Shown one piece after another: positions 1-6,525 of a stretch of DNA of 7,463 nucleotides. A program made the translations under genes and the position numbers. Below the pieces are notes generated by a model. The model saw only the letters and a list, made by a program, of their open reading frames with translations, ran no database searches and was not told the origin of the DNA. Each line of letters begins with the position of its first letter. Position 1 is the first letter of the stretch. Source of the DNA: a bacterium (GTDB taxonomy: Bacteria; ARS69); the NCBI GenBank assembly GCA_025774865.1, contig JALGZO010000471.1, positions 1 to 7,463 on the forward strand. Reading direction: 5' to 3'.

Positions 1-1281
1 CACGAACCTCCGCGGGAGCTCGGCGAGCTCCGTGCCGTCGAGTCGGATCGAACCTGACTCGTAGTCGTAGAGCCGCAACAGGAGCTGCACGATGGCGGAC
101 TTGCCGGACCCGGGCGGGCCGAGCAGCGCGAGCGTCTGACCCGGTTCGATCGAAAAGGAGACGTCGTGGAGGACATCGCCGGCGCCGCCGTCGAACGCGA
201 AGCGGAGGCTCTTCACCTCGATCGCGCCGTGCAGCCGGGCCGGCTCGCCGTTCGCGGATAGCCACTCCGGGGCGGTCGTGCTCGACTCCTCGGGTTCCTC
301 GAGGATCTCCCGCAGGCGTCCGAGCGAGACCATCGCCTTTCCGGTGTCGCTGAGGACGCGGCCGAGGTGCCTGACCGGCCACATCACGATGTTCTCGTAC
401 GTCACGAATGCGAACAGCGTCCCGACGCTGATCGCGCCTTCCAACGTCCACCACGCCCCGACGATCAGCGTCAGCCCGATCTGTCCCATGCACAGCAAGT
501 CCGACAGCGACCAATACGTGGCGAGCAGCTCGATCAGACGATTCGTCCGGTCTCGGAACTGCACGTTCTTCGCGGCGAATTTCTCGCACTCGAAGTCTTG
601 TCGTGCGAACGCCCGTACGACGCGAACCCCCGTGAGGTTCTCCTGGAGCACGGTCGTCATCGCGCCTTCGGCCTCGTCCGAAAGCAGGAAGCGATTCTGG
701 ATCCGCCCGAAGAAGGTGACCGCGAACGCGATGATCACGGGGAAGAGAGCCAGCGCGACGAACGTCATACGCACGTCGAGCCAGAGCATCACCGGAATCA
801 CGGTCAGCAGCAGCAGAATCGCCCGTCCGATCTCGACGACCTCCGCCGCCAGGAAGATCCGGATCGTCTCCACGTCCGACGTGCACCTTTGGACGAGGTC
901 GCCCGTGTCCGCGCGGTCGTGATACGCGCAGGGAAGGCGTTCCAGGTGTCTCACGAGGCGATCCCGGACCCCCCGCACGATGGACTCCGACGCGACCGCG
1001 GCCCAGCGCCCGCGCAGGTACTGGAACAGCCCCGCGAGAACCGTCAGGAGCACGATGGCCGCCGCCGCCAGCCCCAGCGCCGCGGCCGTACCCACCGAGT
1101 CGCCGAGGCGAGAGAAGAAGGCCTCCTCGCCGCCCAGCAACCCGTCGATGACGCTCTTCGAGACGAGGGGCACCCCGAACAAGAAGACATTCGACAGACC
1201 CATCGCGAGGATCGCGACCCCGTACCGGAGTCGCTGCCCCTGCGTGAGCTCCCAGAGTGTCCGATGTGGATCGAGTTTCAC
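1..1281 (-). CDS. ABC exporter half-transporter (MsbA/BmrCD-like), C-terminus beyond window
   Basis: Fused membrane domain plus nucleotide-binding domain of a type IV ABC exporter, expected in the inner membrane and to work as a dimer exporting lipids, drugs or peptides. The visible 427 residues contain about six hydrophobic segments (roughly 20-42, 66-88, 148-168, 171-191, 255-277, 283-300), the family-typical stretch LQENLTGVRVVRAFARQ (211-227), then the ATPase domain starting near 352 with Walker A GPPGSGKS at 388-395 (K394). F363 sits where the A-loop aromatic residue is expected. The Q-loop, signature, Walker B and H-loop lie outside the window, so I cannot say whether the ATPase site is canonical or degenerate, as it is in one half of many heterodimers. 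The GTG start is chosen because GGAGG lies 8 bases upstream; the frame stays open further up, with a TTG 30 bases earlier that has no SD. The partner half, if there is one, would lie off the left edge. The substrate cannot be inferred. Confidence 0.95.
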   Translation of the reverse strand, partial: MKLDPHRTLWELTQGQRLRYGVAILAMGLSNVFLFGVPLVSKSVIDGLLGGEEAFFSRLGDSVGTAAALGLAAAAIVLLTVLAGLFQYLRGRWAAVASESIVRGVRDRLVRHLERLPCAYHDRADTGDLVQRCTSDVETIRIFLAAEVVEIGRAILLLLTVIPVMLWLDVRMTFVALALFPVIIAFAVTFFGRIQNRFLLSDEAEGAMTTVLQENLTGVRVVRAFARQDFECEKFAAKNVQFRDRTNRLIELLATYWSLSDLLCMGQIGLTLIVGAWWTLEGAISVGTLFAFVTYENIVMWPVRHLGRVLSDTGKAMVSLGRLREILEEPEESSTTAPEWLSANGEPARLHGAIEVKSLRFAFDGGAGDVLHDVSFSIEPGQTLALLGPPGSGKSAIVQLLLRLYDYESGSIRLDGTELAELPRRFV

Positions 1282-1308
1282 GGCCGCGGCCTCCGTCGGT
1301 GCCCCTTG

Positions 1309-1339
1309 CAAACAAAAACCCGCTCGGCGGGGGAGCGGG
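1309..1339 (-). terminator. Intrinsic terminator B in the exporter leader
   Basis: Read on the minus strand, a perfect 7-bp stem (CCCGCTC / GAGCGGG, 7-base loop CCCCGCC) is followed at once by TTTTTGTTTG. This is a textbook Rho-independent terminator. On the plus strand the stem is followed by TACGTAC, so it works in the minus direction only. It lies about 28 bases before the exporter GTG, with no long gene upstream to terminate, so it probably attenuates transcription into the exporter. Confidence 0.75.
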
Positions 1340-1351
1340 TACGTACAGGGC

Positions 1352-1388
1352 AAAAACGACGAAACCCGCTCGGTCGGCGAGCGGGCTT
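1352..1388 (-). terminator. Intrinsic terminator A in the exporter leader (near-copy of B)
   Basis: Minus-strand stem of 8 bp (CCCGCTCG / CGAGCGGG, loop CCGAC), extendable by AAG against TTT, followed by TTTCGTCGTTTTT. Its arms are the same sequence as those of the terminator 12 bases further on. The 3' arm of A can therefore pair with the 5' arm of B, which would disrupt both terminators. This gives the four-arm 1:2, 3:4 versus 2:3 layout of classical attenuators. Terminator-like orientation is seen directly; alternative pairing in vivo is inference. Confidence 0.7.
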
Positions 1389-1393
1389 GCAGG

Positions 1394-1409
1394 CTGGCTC
1401 TATCGCCAG
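1394..1409 (-). other. Small leader hairpin upstream of terminator A
   Basis: CTGGC / GCCAG stem with loop GATAGA, between the short leader ORF and terminator A. Its 5' arm (CTGGCG) is also complementary to CGCCAG at 1502-1507, near the predicted transcription start, so a competing long-range pairing is possible. A 5-bp stem is weak evidence alone; it is listed because of its place in the leader. Confidence 0.35.
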
Positions 1410-1430
1410 GGTGAGATCAAGTCCACTCGC

Positions 1431-1481
1431 TCAATCGTGTCCGGTATTTCCCGGAACCTTGTCGGTGAGTCGAATGAACAT
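1431..1481 (-). CDS. Candidate 16-residue leader peptide upstream of ABC exporter
   Basis: ATG-initiated ORF encoding MFIRLTDKVPGNTGHD then TGA, with a purine-rich Shine-Dalgarno (GGAG within AGGAGAGAG) 9 bases before the start. It sits in order behind a candidate promoter and ahead of two tandem terminators and the exporter gene, the usual layout for a leader peptide controlling attenuation. No amino acid is enriched, so it does not look like an amino-acid biosynthesis attenuator. An antibiotic- or translation-responsive leader such as bmrB upstream of bmrCD in Bacillus subtilis is the closest known analogy. The stop codon lies about 45 bases before the first terminator arm, further than a stalled ribosome would cover, which weakens a simple stalling model. 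A chance ORF remains possible. Confidence 0.45.
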   Translation of the reverse strand: MFIRLTDKVPGNTGHD

Positions 1482-1513
1482 CGCTTCTCTCTCCTGGTGG
1501 GCTGGCGACACGG

Positions 1514-1542
1514 AAGATACGAAACTCCCCCGGTGAGCGCAA
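1514..1542 (-). promoter_or_regulatory. Candidate sigma-70-type promoter for the exporter leader
   Basis: On the minus strand, TTGCGC and TATCTT are separated by exactly 17 bases (3/6 and 4/6 matches to the -35 and -10 consensus). Transcription would begin near 1507, about 26 bases before the leader ATG. The match is moderate; its position immediately upstream of a well-spaced SD and ORF is the main support. The spacer overlaps a C5/G5 inverted repeat (1524-1550) that could be an operator or a chance structure. Confidence 0.4.
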
Positions 1543-1585
1543 GGGGGAAGTCGCGGCCTGTCGGTCGGGAAGCCGCCGAGTTAAG

Positions 1586-3595
1586 ATGCATGCCATGTCC
1601 CGCCTGCCCTGGAGCTTCGTTTCCGTACGCATCGCCGCGGTCGCCGGCCTGACGCTGGTCTCGTGCGCTCGGGGCCCCGACTCGGGGTCCCTCGCCGGAT
1701 GGAACGTCCTGCTGATCACCGTCGACACCCTCCGCGCCGACCGGCTCGGCTTCGCCGGGTACGAGCCGGCGGAGACGCCCATCCTCGATGCCTTCGCGGG
1801 TGACGGCGTCGTCTTCGAGAACGCGATCTCTTCCGCTCCGGTCACCCTTCCTTCGCACGCCAGCCTCATGACGGGGCGGTACCCGCCGGGGCACGGGGCG
1901 CTCGACAACGCGTACTACTCCCTTCCGGATGACGTCCCGACGCTGGCGACGGTGTTGCGGACGGCGGGGTACGAGACCGCCGCCATCGTCGGGGCCTACG
2001 TCCTCCACGGGCAGTTCGGCCTCGATGCCGGCTTCGACCGGTACGACGACTTCTTTCGCCAACCTCGCCCGGACGAGTGGGAGCCGCGCGAGCGCCGCGC
2101 CGGGGAGGTGAGCGCGCGGGCGGGGGAGTGGCTCGCGGGGCGGAAGAACGATCGTCCCTTCTTCCTGTGGGTCCACATGTTCGATCCGCACTCGCCCTAC
2201 GATCCGCCACCGCCGTTCAACTCCCGCTTCGCCGCGCGCCCGTACGACGGCGAGATTGCATACACCGACCGCGCGATCGGGACGCTCCTGGAGTCGTTGG
2301 ACGGGGCCGGGTTCGGAGACCGGACGATGGTCGTCGTCACGGCCGATCATGGTGAGGGATTCGGCGACGGAGGGGAGAAGACTCACGGCCTGCTGCTGCG
2401 CACGAGCACCCTGCGGGTGCCGCTCCTGCTCCGGGCCCCGGGCGTGTTGCCGGCCGGTCGGCGAGTCGAGGGGCTGGTGTCGACGGTGGACCTGATGCCG
2501 ACGGTGCTCGATCTGCTCGGGGTGGACACACCGACGGGGGTCGACGGCTCGAGCATCGCGGGCGCGATCCGCACCGGCCGGGCGGAGGGCCGACGCGCCT
2601 ATTCCGAAACCCGGCTGCCCGCGAACATCTTCGGCTGGTCGATGCTGGCGGGGTCGCGCAACGACCGCTGGGCCTGGGTTCGGGGTCCGATCCCGGAGCT
2701 CTATGATCTGGATTCGGATCCGGGGCAAACTCGGAGCCTGCACGCGGAGCGGCCGGAGAAGGCGTCGGACCTGGATCGGGACGTGGAGCGAGTGCTCGGA
2801 GCTTCGCGAGGGGGGACGACCGCGCGCGCTCTCTCGTCGGAGGAGGTGGACGCTCTGCGTGCGCTCGGGTACGCGTACGGCTCGGAGGCCCCGAAGCCGT
2901 CGGGCGCGGACCCCAAGGAACGCCTGCCGCTGTGGAACCGATTCGATGGACTGCGAGATGTCTTCGAAGCCGGTCGCTACGCAGAGGCGGCGATCGGACT
3001 CGAAGAGCTCTTGAACGAGGATCCCGGGAACTACGAGGCGCGTACGCTGCTCGGGCGGGCGCTCGTGAGAGCGGGCCGGGTCGAAGAGGGGCTCCGCGAA
3101 TTCCAGGCTCTGCTCGAAGCGGGAAGGGCCCGCGGCCGGACGGGCGCGATCTTCGCGCACGCTCTCACCGATGCGGGCCATCCCGAGGAGGCCGAGACTC
3201 TCCTGCGGGTGCTTTGCCGCAGCGAGCCGGAGGATGTGGACCACCCGTTCAATCTCGGGGTATTGCTCTTGAAGCAGGGTCGTTGGAAAGAAGCCCGGGC
3301 CGCCTACGAAGAGGCCCATCGTCTCGGCCCGGAAGCGATCCACGTGCTCGCGCACCTCTCAATTTCCCTCTCGGTCGGGGCCGATCCGGATTCGGCCCGG
3401 GCCGTGGATCTGATCGATCGCGCCGTCGAGCTGGCTCGGGAGGACGATCGTCCGTTGCTGGCGAAGGCGAAGGTCCTGTCGAACGTGGGCAGAACGGAGG
3501 ACGCGCGGAGTCTCCTGCGGGAGCTCGCGGCACGTCGGACGCTTCACGGGGTCACGAAGAAGGAAGTGGCGAAGGTCATGCGGGAGATCGGATGA
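1586..3595 (+). CDS. Sulfatase-fold lipoprotein with C-terminal TPR domain, Thr in nucleophile position
   Basis: Alkaline-phosphatase-superfamily metalloenzyme of the sulfatase-like hydrolase/transferase group, probably envelope-anchored: a hydrophobic N-terminal stretch ends in the lipobox LVSC (C27). The sulfatase domain spans about 38-375, with VDTLRADRL (metal-binding D47), TLPSHASLMTG (87-97), HMFDPHSPYD (197-206) and TADHGEGFGD (252-261; D254, H255), then H267. Where formylglycine sulfatases have C/S-x-P-S-R, this has T87-L-P-S-H, so it cannot be activated to formylglycine and may use Thr directly, as phosphoethanolamine and phosphoglycerol transferases do. A linker LSSEEVDALRALGYA (417-431) leads to TPR-like helical repeats from about 450 to 655. 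First gene of a three-gene operon. Start is uncertain: no strong SD precedes ATG 1586, and M4 (1595) is an alternative. Substrate unknown. Confidence 0.9.
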   Translation: MHAMSRLPWSFVSVRIAAVAGLTLVSCARGPDSGSLAGWNVLLITVDTLRADRLGFAGYEPAETPILDAFAGDGVVFENAISSAPVTLPSHASLMTGRYPPGHGALDNAYYSLPDDVPTLATVLRTAGYETAAIVGAYVLHGQFGLDAGFDRYDDFFRQPRPDEWEPRERRAGEVSARAGEWLAGRKNDRPFFLWVHMFDPHSPYDPPPPFNSRFAARPYDGEIAYTDRAIGTLLESLDGAGFGDRTMVVVTADHGEGFGDGGEKTHGLLLRTSTLRVPLLLRAPGVLPAGRRVEGLVSTVDLMPTVLDLLGVDTPTGVDGSSIAGAIRTGRAEGRRAYSETRLPANIFGWSMLAGSRNDRWAWVRGPIPELYDLDSDPGQTRSLHAERPEKASDLDRDVERVLGASRGGTTARALSSEEVDALRALGYAYGSEAPKPSGADPKERLPLWNRFDGLRDVFEAGRYAEAAIGLEELLNEDPGNYEARTLLGRALVRAGRVEEGLREFQALLEAGRARGRTGAIFAHALTDAGHPEEAETLLRVLCRSEPEDVDHPFNLGVLLLKQGRWKEARAAYEEAHRLGPEAIHVLAHLSISLSVGADPDSARAVDLIDRAVELAREDDRPLLAKAKVLSNVGRTEDARSLLRELAARRTLHGVTKKEVAKVMREIG

Positions 3596-4188
3596 GGCGG
3601 GCCACGTCGCCAACGGCGATCTCCCTCCGTTGCGCCACCTCACCCGAGTGGGTGCCCACGGTTCTTGCCGACTTCGACACCTTCCTCGTGGATCACGCGG
3701 CCTGCGAGCGGAAGGCGTCGGCGACGGGGATGCTCTTCGTCGTGCGCTACCCGGACCGGCCGGCGTTGATCGGGCCGCTCATCGATTTCGCCCGGGAGGA
3801 GCTCGAGCACTTTCACGAGGTGTGGAAGATCGTCTCGGCTCGAGGTCTCCAGCTACGGCGGGACCGCCCCGACGATTACGCGCGGGCCCTGCTCGAAGGT
3901 GCACGCCACGGCCGGGACGAGCGCCTTCTCGACCGGCTCCTCATCGCCGGGATCCTGGAGGCCCGCGGCTGCGAGCGCTTCGGCCTCTTGTCGAACGCCC
4001 TGGAAGAGGAGGAGCTGCACGAGTTCTATCGAGACCTCGTTCGGGCGGACGCCCGCCACCAGCGTCTCTTCTTCGATCTGGCACGCGAATACTTCGACGA
4101 CGACATCGTCCGCGAGCGCAGTGAAGTCCTCCTGGAGCTCGAGGCCGACATCGTGACGCGGCTCCCGGTCCGGCCGGCGCTCTACTGA
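3592..4188 (+). CDS. miaE: MiaE-type tRNA-(ms2io6A37) hydroxylase, non-haem diiron
   Basis: Cytoplasmic O2-dependent diiron monooxygenase that, in characterised members, hydroxylates the isopentenyl group of ms2i6A at position 37 of tRNAs reading UNN codons. The 198 residues show the ferritin-like ligand pattern: E39 in ACERKA, E70/H73 in EELEHF, E123 in ILEARGCERF, and H156 in the last helix. The family usually ends with an E-x-x-H pair (as in SEARH), from memory; here the residue three before H156 is Asp (D153 in ADARH). The length matches the shorter class of MiaE (about 200 residues). Its ATG overlaps the upstream stop in ATGA, implying translational coupling with the sulfatase-like gene, and the glycosyltransferase follows after 2 bases. 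The substrate would need MiaA and MiaB, which are not in this window. Identification rests on family motifs and is strong; the operon context is unusual. Confidence 0.9.
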   Translation: MRRATSPTAISLRCATSPEWVPTVLADFDTFLVDHAACERKASATGMLFVVRYPDRPALIGPLIDFAREELEHFHEVWKIVSARGLQLRRDRPDDYARALLEGARHGRDERLLDRLLIAGILEARGCERFGLLSNALEEEELHEFYRDLVRADARHQRLFFDLAREYFDDDIVRERSEVLLELEADIVTRLPVRPALY

Positions 4189-4190
4189 CG

Positions 4191-5501
4191 GTGTCCGCCC
4201 CGCCGCCGCCCACCGCACTCTCGAAACCCCTTCGCAAGTACCTGACGACGTGGGCCGAGCCGGAAACCCGTCTCGCGGCCGACGTGCCCGGTCCGTACGA
4301 GAACGTTCTCGTCATTCCCGTTCTCCGCGAACAGGCGTCGTTCTTGGACGGGGTGCGTCCGGCCGTCGAAGGCGCGCCGGGCGCGACGCTCGTGATCGTC
4401 GTCGTGAACGCCGCGGAAGACGCGAGTGCCGAAGCGCACTCGACCAACGCCGAGATGATCGAGAGGCTTCGGCACGCGGGCCGGGTGACGCGCGAGTGGC
4501 CGGACGCGGGCGCGTCCTTCCTCGGGAGCGGGGCGGGCGCCGATCTCCTGGTGATCGATCGCGCGAGCGAGGGGCGACGACTGCCGGCCGGAGAGGGGGT
4601 CGGCCGGGCGCGCAAGATCGGTTCCGACGTGGCGCTGTCCCTGCGAGTGGCGGGGCGCCTCGCGTCGGAGTGGATCCACGCCTCGGACGCCGACGCCGTG
4701 CAGCCGCCGGATCGCTTCGCCGCCGCCGAGGCCGCGGGCGCGCCGGGTGTCGTCGCGGTCACGCACCCGTTTCGGCACACGCCGTCCGGCGACGATGCCC
4801 TGGACGATGCTCTTCGCCGTTACGAGCACTCGCTCCGTTACTGGGTTCAGGGGCTCGAGTGGGCTGGCTCCCCCTACGCGTTTCACGCCGTGGGAAGCAC
4901 GCTCGCGGTGCGCGCGGAGGACTACGCGCGGGTCCGGGGATTCCCGGATCGGGAGGCGGGGGAGGATTTCTACTTGCTCAACAAGCTCGCGAAACTCGGC
5001 CGCGTCGCGGCGGCCGGCGGCGCCCCCGTGCAGATCCGCGGTCGCCTCTCGGATCGTGTGCCCTTCGGGACCGGTCGCGCCATCCGCCGCATCCTCGACG
5101 ACGATGCGCGCGGCGAGCCGTTCCGGCTCTACCATCCGGTGTGCTTCCGGCTCTTGAAACGCTGGCTCGTCGCCGCGGAGAAGTGGGCACGGGAAGGGGA
5201 GGATGCGATCGAGTGCGCCACCCGCGACCTCCCGATCGCCGAGGCCGGCGCTCTGGCCGAGGCGCTCGACGCCGCCGGCGCCCGCCGCCACCTCGCGGCG
5301 ATCCATGAGCACCACGGGCGCGGCGATCTGCTTCGTCCGTTCCACACCTGGTTCGACGGCTTCCGAACGCTCAAGCTCGTTCACGCCATCCGCGACCGCG
5401 GCTACGCCGGATTGAAATGGAGGGAGGCGCTCGAGTCCGCGCCGTTCGTCACGGCCGAGGCGTCGAAAGCTCCGCCACCCGCCGGCGCTCAGCGAGCGTG
5501 A
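4191..5501 (+). CDS. GT-A fold glycosyltransferase, family 2-like
   Basis: A 436-residue soluble, probably inverting, nucleotide-sugar-dependent glycosyltransferase. Visible: the opening beta strand NVLVIPVLRE (38-47), a divalent-metal DxD-type motif in HASDADAVQPP (D166-A-D168), an acceptor-side region GSTLAVRAEDYARVRGFP (235-252), and the catalytic-base type GEDFYLLNKL (257-266; E258, D259), followed by DRVPFGTG (288-295). A roughly 140-residue helical, charged C-terminal region follows without membrane segments, so it is not a processive synthase. GTG start 2 bases after the miaE stop, without a clear SD, suggests coupled translation. An unusually long insert (about 75-150) separates the first strand from the DxD motif. 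Its last 53 bases overlap the convergent membrane-protein gene. Sugar and acceptor cannot be predicted. Confidence 0.8.
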   Translation: MSAPPPPTALSKPLRKYLTTWAEPETRLAADVPGPYENVLVIPVLREQASFLDGVRPAVEGAPGATLVIVVVNAAEDASAEAHSTNAEMIERLRHAGRVTREWPDAGASFLGSGAGADLLVIDRASEGRRLPAGEGVGRARKIGSDVALSLRVAGRLASEWIHASDADAVQPPDRFAAAEAAGAPGVVAVTHPFRHTPSGDDALDDALRRYEHSLRYWVQGLEWAGSPYAFHAVGSTLAVRAEDYARVRGFPDREAGEDFYLLNKLAKLGRVAAAGGAPVQIRGRLSDRVPFGTGRAIRRILDDDARGEPFRLYHPVCFRLLKRWLVAAEKWAREGEDAIECATRDLPIAEAGALAEALDAAGARRHLAAIHEHHGRGDLLRPFHTWFDGFRTLKLVHAIRDRGYAGLKWREALESAPFVTAEASKAPPPAGAQRA

Positions 5502-6519
5502 GAAACGCGATCGCCACGAGAATGAGGGCCAGCGAGATCCAGTCGCGAGTCGCGGGGAACCGTCCGCCGAATCCCCAGTAAAAGACGAGGGTGGCGGTCG
5601 TCCCCGCGATCAGGGACGTCAGCCGGTTCACGAGACCCGCGAACGTGGCCGTCCGACCCTGGAACAGGAAGAGGAACACCGAGAAGAACGCCGCCCCTCC
5701 GAAGGGGATCCCGGAGATCAGTGCCCACTTCCAGAGCGGGTGCGGGATCCGGATCGCGTCGCGGTACCCCTCGATCACCTCGCCCGATCCGATCGTGTGG
5801 AAGAAGAGGAGACTCGCCAGCGTGAGTGTGGCGCTGGCGGCGAGTTGCTCGATCCCGAAGAACGGCCGATTGTCCTGCTTTCCGCCCCGGCCGTGCGTGT
5901 TCTTGTAGTAGTTCATGATGTAGATCCGGATCGAGTAGGCCACAATGTAGCTTCCGAGGATCGACAGAGCGGGGACCGACCGCAAGAAGTCGAAACCACC
6001 TTCGCGCGCAAAGAGGACGTGCACCCCGACGGCGGCGATCGCAAAGAGCACCGCGACGTTCTCCTCCCAGTACACCGTCTTGTCGAGGAGACCCTGTCGG
6101 ATCTGGATCGCGTCGACGACGCGACTGATCACGATGACGCTGCCGCGCATGATCACCATCGCGACCATGACGGAGATCGGAAGCGTGTACATCAAGGTCG
6201 TGGTGGGAATGACGACCGCAGTGCAGACCCCGGACGGCACCAGGTAGAGAAGCTCGCCCGGGAAGCGAACCGGCCCGAGGCGCATCGGGTGCAACGACTC
6301 GAGCCGCCACCAGCGCAGCGCGACCACGACGCCGAGTACGACGGTCGCCGACCCTCCCGTGCTGTAGACGAGATACTCGATTCCGCTGAGCCCCGGAAAG
6401 CCGAGCTCGGGCCGCCCCAGGAAGAACTTCACCGAGACGCCGGTCAGGACATAGAAGAAGAAGTACCCGAGACAGAGCTGGATGAGACGGCCGGTCGACC
6501 CGGCGGCGGTGCGCCACAT
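5449..6519 (-). CDS. Ten-helix membrane protein, DMT/EamA-transporter-like
   Basis: A 356-residue integral membrane protein with about ten hydrophobic helices (near 11-31, 50-69, 88-108, 115-134, 151-171, 183-204, 225-242, 263-284, 291-316, 328-343) and short charged ends. Length, helix count and the segment TLPISVMVAMVIMRGSVIVISRVVD (112-136), which resembles the fourth helix of drug/metabolite transporters, suggest a divergent DMT-superfamily permease; this is inference, since no diagnostic motif is conserved enough to be certain. A polar loop (205-222, KNTHGRGGKQDNRPFF) separates the two halves. ATG 6519 is chosen because the hydrophobic sequence starts there and an earlier in-frame ATG would run through the divergent dehydrogenase gene. 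There is no proper SD; GGGG touches the ATG, in line with a leaderless transcript. Substrate unknown. Confidence 0.75.
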   Translation of the reverse strand: MWRTAAGSTGRLIQLCLGYFFFYVLTGVSVKFFLGRPELGFPGLSGIEYLVYSTGGSATVVLGVVVALRWWRLESLHPMRLGPVRFPGELLYLVPSGVCTAVVIPTTTLMYTLPISVMVAMVIMRGSVIVISRVVDAIQIRQGLLDKTVYWEENVAVLFAIAAVGVHVLFAREGGFDFLRSVPALSILGSYIVAYSIRIYIMNYYKNTHGRGGKQDNRPFFGIEQLAASATLTLASLLFFHTIGSGEVIEGYRDAIRIPHPLWKWALISGIPFGGAAFFSVFLFLFQGRTATFAGLVNRLTSLIAGTTATLVFYWGFGGRFPATRDWISLALILVAIAFLTLAERRRVAELSTPRP

Positions 6520-6525
6520 CCCCGT

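Follow-up and report, generated by a model that had tools for sequence, protein, structure and literature searches.

The DNA analyzed here (the window), a 7,463-bp contig in its entirety from an incomplete and fragmented assembly (785 contigs), carries on its minus strand what is probably a ribosome-mediated transcription attenuator, through which an apparently heterodimer-type ABC exporter would be expressed according to how translation is proceeding. The piece missing from an earlier sequence-only reading of this DNA, and supplied here with support from relatives, is a predicted antiterminator strand that directly follows the stop codon of a 16-codon leader ORF. Ribosome-mediated attenuation of antibiotic resistance genes is known mainly from Firmicutes; its known range would grow considerably if Planctomycetota and another phylum also have a conserved form ahead of an ABC exporter. 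If the reading is true, the exporter would be an inducible defence against ribosome-targeting compounds, and a two-terminator domino with the stop codon as part of the switch makes testable predictions.

Organization of the leader and its neighborhood

All elements listed in the sequence-only reading (a 17-spaced promoter-like pair, a Shine-Dalgarno [SD] sequence with a 16-codon ORF, a small hairpin, tandem same-arm terminators, and an SD-GTG exporter start) were present on the minus strand, in the following arrangement:

1586-3595, plus: sulfatase-like gene, divergent from the leader and its upstream neighbor
1514-1542, minus: promoter-like TTGCGC (1542-1537), 17 nt, TATCTT (1519-1514), from sequence and likeness to the G002 leader
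1491-1495, minus: mini-ORF SD, AGGAG, from sequence
1469-1489 (limits approximate), minus: segment 1, start-codon region and predicted anti-antiterminator, pairing with segment 2 in minimum free energy (MFE) folds without a ribosome
1431-1481, minus: leader mini-ORF, MFIRLTDKVPGNTGHD and stop, 16 codons, from sequence, with counterparts in 28 leaders
1419-1430, minus: segment 2, predicted antiterminator 5' strand, GCGAGUGGACUU, directly 3' of the UGA stop, 11/12 pairs with the T1 5' arm (1388-1377)
1394-1409, minus: small hairpin CUGGC..GCCAG inside the antiterminator loop, from folds
1362-1388, minus: terminator T1, 5' arm (segment 3) 1388-1378, 3' arm (segment 4) 1372-1362, arms conserved
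1311-1340, minus: terminator T2, 5' arm (segment 5) 1340-1333, 3' arm 1325-1318, U-tract to 1311
1290-1294, minus: exporter SD, GGAGG, from sequence, before the GTG at 1281
1-1281, minus: ABC exporter half-transporter, truncated by the end of the contig (ABC_membrane and the beginning of ABC_tran), GTG start

The promoter-like pair was too weak for a strict sigma-70 scan of the window and was not reported there; the leader of G002, a member of the same family, has TTGCGC-17-TATATT at the same place, with the spacing and -35 element of the window. T1 (1388-1362) had a folding energy of -17.8 kcal/mol (z -4.5) and T2 (1340-1318, followed by TTTTTGTTT) one of -13.7 kcal/mol (z -3.9). An interruption in the T1 U-tract (UUUCGUCGUUUUU) may make this terminator leaky when it acts alone. 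A terminator scan found 6 terminator-like sites in the window versus 4.1 ± 2.4 expected, a count that is not significant alone; the significance of the terminators comes from their structure energies, their conservation, and an arm pattern that stays at control level genome-wide. Because the upstream sulfatase-like gene is divergent, the minus-strand terminators are not the ends of its transcript, which bears out the earlier claim that there is no long gene upstream for them to end.

The hairpin arms are not a general terminator habit of these genomes. The window leader accounts for two of the 5 forward matches that CCCGCTY-N-GAGCGGG had in 4.7 Mb, a genome-wide frequency at control level; across 14 genomes, CCCGCTY-N(3-11)-GAGCGGG occurred at about the level of a reversed-pattern control, and in G942 the exporter leader was the sole place with the arm hairpin. 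With the pattern at control level, the idea that these genomes commonly terminate with CCCGCTC/GAGCGGG was rejected. A probable constraint on the arm sequence is that one GAGCG(G) stretch must function at the stop codon and in both T1 and T2.

The window encodes the first 427 residues of the exporter half-transporter (ABC_membrane, ABC_tran), whose PDB matches include Sav1866, TM288, BmrD, and BmrC among many other exporters. The contig ends inside this first gene. G002 has a further ABC match immediately downstream of the exporter, and a second complete ABC half-transporter follows the exporter in three of the four distant relatives read (L031-L033); for the fourth (L034), the contig stops within an open frame. 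Elsewhere in the window, a MiaE-family tRNA hydroxylase gene (3592-4188, plus) lies between the sulfatase-TPR gene and an unassigned 436-aa ORF. A membrane protein with no Pfam or NCBIfam match (window 5449-6525, minus; L106 2615-3712, minus) adjoins the leader upstream in G002 and lies about 4 kb from it in the window, a rearranged synteny.

A predicted antiterminator at the stop codon

By sequence and computation, five pairings are available to the leader: 1:2, 2:3, 3:4 (T1), 4:5, and T2. In the window, the 2:3 antiterminator was favored over T1 (-26.9 versus -17.8 kcal/mol, thermodynamic rather than cotranscriptional fold energies). Among 27 leaders, the T1 5' arm had a better upstream partner than in dinucleotide shuffles (Fisher p about 4e-12), and a leader's own partner beat partners swapped among leaders (p 5e-5), both p-values being overstated since leader ORFs were picked by eye from the sequence and related genomes are not independent. 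The partner overlapped the stop-codon region in 18 of the 27; in relatives it often reads UGAGCG, with the stop codon inside the pairing strand. As the core arm pairs are nearly invariant, classical pair counting there was uninformative, with one compensatory change (in G476), and the swap test took its place. Covariation in the arms, which the sequence-only reading had proposed as a check, is therefore weak in the core but visible outside it, since the swap result is covariation outside the invariant core. Folds, shuffles, and swapped partners together indicate that antiterminator and terminator are mutually exclusive.

The choice of fold also depended on ribosome position, as modeled by in silico masking. 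In the window, the antiterminator formed with the ribosomal P site at codons 1 to 13, shrank from codon 14, and was lost at the stop. Across leaders, mean predicted capture of the T1 arm was 0.74 with the ribosome at codon 5 and 0.29 with the ribosome at the stop, a difference of 0.45 versus 0.10 ± 0.04 in shuffles. The sequence-only reading had cautioned that the stop lies about 45 nt from the first terminator arm; the concern is answered by where the antiterminator 5' strand starts, at the stop codon itself, since a ribosome arriving there would mask that strand. In the ribosome-free MFE fold of the window, the antiterminator strand is sequestered by the start-codon region, yet this state was mixed in silico (mean arm capture 0.57; window, 0.54), so the 1:2 pairing is not a firm lock everywhere.

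Two terminators as a possible domino

The earlier claim that pairing of the T1 3' arm with the T2 5' arm abolishes both terminators was upheld as far as the pairing goes: it was possible in all 10 tandem leaders, at -10 to -24 kcal/mol, and was kept in the AT-rich G502 and G538 despite quite different arm sequences. The MFE fold of the window from the stop codon through T2 contained the antiterminator and the 4:5 cross-pair, with neither full terminator and a 5-bp remnant of T2. Cross-pairing alone, however, cannot be the switch, because the T1 5' arm must first be held by the post-stop strand. As 18 of the 28 leaders compiled (see below) seemingly have one terminator only, the domino is an elaboration rather than a defining feature.

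Under the proposed mechanism, a leader without a ribosome would pair 1:2 and hide segment 2, so that T1 and T2 form and the exporter is off. A ribosome finishing the ORF would cover segment 2 at the stop codon, T1 would form, and the exporter would again be off. Should a ribosome-targeting antibiotic or general translation stress slow or halt the ribosome within the early or middle codons, segment 2 would instead be free to capture the T1 5' arm; the T1 3' arm, once released, would capture the T2 5' arm, both terminators would fail, and the exporter would be transcribed.

Leader peptides and what may be sensed

We infer that the mini-ORF is translated; it is a short SD-led ORF upstream of an intrinsic terminator, with counterparts in relatives. 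An SD-like 4-mer was present in 25 of the 28 compiled leaders, whose ORFs were partly chosen by SD. The conservation expected of the mini-ORF thus held for its presence, position, SD, and stop but not for its amino acid sequence: no conserved peptide was found among the 28 leader ORFs, which ranged from 13 to 42 in length. No residue run exceeded two in the 28 peptides, save four Gln in one, and the window ORF had none; neither the window nor the 28 leaders showed the run of codons for a regulated amino acid that marks amino-acid leaders, and no single amino acid therefore seems to be sensed. Unconserved peptides lacking residue runs suggest a general translation or antibiotic sensor, and our best guess, by analogy with vmlR, bmrB, and toiL, is a general sensor of slowed translation. 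Hydrophobic residues were frequent at position 2 (61% of the 28 peptides) and scarce at position 4 (11%), a pattern that could possibly reflect an early-stall preference.

Occurrence in exporter relatives

Searching 60 relatives at the DNA level with the 341-nt region yielded short, weak matches only, so orthologues were sought through the exporter protein; one weak DNA match (G002, E 0.03) later turned out to be a true leader. The G002 orthologue (65%) is preceded by a mini-ORF (MIRRIVLDPVGNVDRLRASA) and two same-arm terminators. Its upstream neighbor is a different, codirectional gene, and the promoter, mini-ORF, and terminators are still kept. A profile from six exporters then identified orthologues in Planctomycetota. 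The earlier reading of a leader-ORF attenuator of an ABC exporter was thereby strengthened, the layout being kept in G002 and in divergent Planctomycetota.

Terminator-like sites, many of them weak, were found within 400 nt at 47 of 93 exporter loci. By reading, we compiled 28 of the 93 relatives with an SD-led mini-ORF followed by one or two terminators; in about two-thirds of the 93 examined, the leader went undetected. The 28 leaders span Planctomycetota, one gammaproteobacterium, and the small phylum of the window, which has five genomes in the collection. Contig ends cut the homologues in G004 and G001 before the leader. On a quick exporter tree (n = 74), the window exporter grouped with the planctomycetotal G860 and G586 and with G002; the leader required 13 changes and was present on both sides of the midpoint root. 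This distribution suggests transfer between phyla and repeated loss, with change counts that cannot separate gain from loss.

The lone gammaproteobacterial exporter copy, from Alginatibacterium sediminis (L033/L111), has its own leader ORF and terminator. Since no other member was above the cut-off in 369 genomes of its class, this copy looks transferred.

A covariance model and apparent amino-acid attenuators

A covariance model built from 14 leaders was used to scan 392 Planctomycetota genomes. The best match outside the training set (G660, E 1.2e-6) was a leader before a divergent exporter that the protein cut-off had missed and that has an internal repeat. The insert (MGVPLG repeats) lies between the membrane and ATPase domains of this exporter (L259, G660:C181).

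Weaker matches lay before hisG, two prephenate dehydratase genes, and one gene for a biopterin-dependent aromatic amino acid hydroxylase. They resemble classic amino-acid attenuators, with hairpin arms similar to those of the exporter leaders. Before hisG (L243, G442:C35), a His-rich leader ORF (VISNRTAHHHHAHRHEVA) is followed by a GGCCCGCTC..GAGCGGGC terminator, an apparent planctomycete His attenuator. The leader ORFs before prephenate dehydratase, MNRTRNIFALAYAYFGGCGRACG (L232, G535) and MKRTQNIFALYAYLGGRGHACG (L240, G704), belong to apparent Phe/Tyr attenuators, and a Tyr-rich ORF (MKNMTASRYYYPPHRGADTPA, with YYYPP) with an attenuator-like terminator precedes the hydroxylase gene (L244/L260, G499:C108). 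Most other weak matches inspected were, by appearance, ordinary gene-end terminators.

Alternative explanations

The unconserved peptide sequences would also fit a protein- or ligand-gated attenuator in which a bound factor picks the fold and the mini-ORF is incidental, and the strongly conserved arm sequence could be its binding site. We consider this improbable given the SD-like mini-ORF in 25/28 leaders with a stop codon at the antiterminator strand, and given that the same covariance model matches apparent classic amino-acid attenuators with leader ORFs; an Rfam scan of window positions 1100-1800 found no family (T-box, riboswitches, anti-hemB) above its gathering score. The nearest approach in that scan, the anti-hemB small RNA (E 0.0069, 22.6 bits versus a gathering score of 49.5), was rejected as a likeness of tandem hairpins. 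Weak as it is, this match, along with the presence of two good terminators, is what a small RNA or untranslated transcript ending in ordinary tandem terminators, without switching, would have in its favor. That explanation appears quite unlikely, as the hairpin arms are hardly used elsewhere in the genomes, the antiterminator partner is beyond chance, and the leader unit stays upstream of the same exporter.

Least probable of all, and very unlikely, is that the mini-ORF product is itself exported, as a signal peptide or other cargo, with the terminators doing no more than adjusting how much peptide is made relative to exporter. A short ORF does lie directly before an exporter, and operons for peptide export can have a terminator separating the precursor gene from the exporter gene, but the absence of a conserved peptide among 28 ORFs of 13 to 42 in length speaks against cargo, and the complementarity at the stop codon would be left unexplained.

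Ribosome-mediated attenuation remains the preferred reading, and the occurrence of the same kind of switch before exporter relatives in many Planctomycetota marks it as genuine and as a mostly undescribed relative of known antibiotic-responsive attenuators. More tentatively, and with a chance we place a little short of even, these leaders may form a cross-phylum attenuator family, possibly ancestral to the exporter family, in which the antiterminator overlaps or adjoins the stop, the two-terminator form acts as a domino, and the whole would serve as a general translation-stress or antibiotic sensor driving an efflux pump in Planctomycetota and the window's phylum.

Comparison with known systems

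In the vmlR leader of Bacillus subtilis, as summarized in the abstract of its description (PMC9226507), a ribosome stalled with antibiotic frees an antiterminator; like the arrangement predicted for the window, that leader has an upstream ORF (uORF), anti-antiterminator, antiterminator, and intrinsic terminator. It controls an ABCF ribosome-protection ATPase, whereas the window leader precedes an exporter, and a domino of two same-arm terminators is not described in that abstract; the likeness is one of logic, not sequence. In E. coli, a single uORF, toiL, reportedly responds to ribosome-targeting antibiotics of several classes, acting on translation and Rho-dependent termination (PMC12121999), in contrast to the intrinsic terminators of the window. 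The trp-, his-, and phe-type leader-peptide attenuators share the alternative pairings 1:2/2:3/3:4 with the window but differ in their residue runs, which in the exporter leaders never exceed two apart from the four Gln in one. The ABC-leaders of Naville and Gautheret in 2010 (PMC2965389), likewise attenuators before ABC transporters, are shown there for Firmicutes and Gammaproteobacteria, the string "Planctomyc" being absent from the main text; some gammaproteobacterial rimP leaders in that study have a second tandem terminator.

Closest in target is bmrB-bmrCD of B. subtilis (PMC4191407), where a heterodimeric ABC exporter is under transcription attenuation governed by ribosome position, as proposed for the window exporter. 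The latter matches the YheH/YheI (BmrD/BmrC) chains, among many other exporters. The single bmrB terminator lies inside the 162-bp coding region, whereas the window has two, both beyond the stop codon of the 16-codon ORF, and a predicted antiterminator starting at this codon. By sequence, the window leader is a member of neither the vmlR nor the bmrB attenuators; it would work like both.
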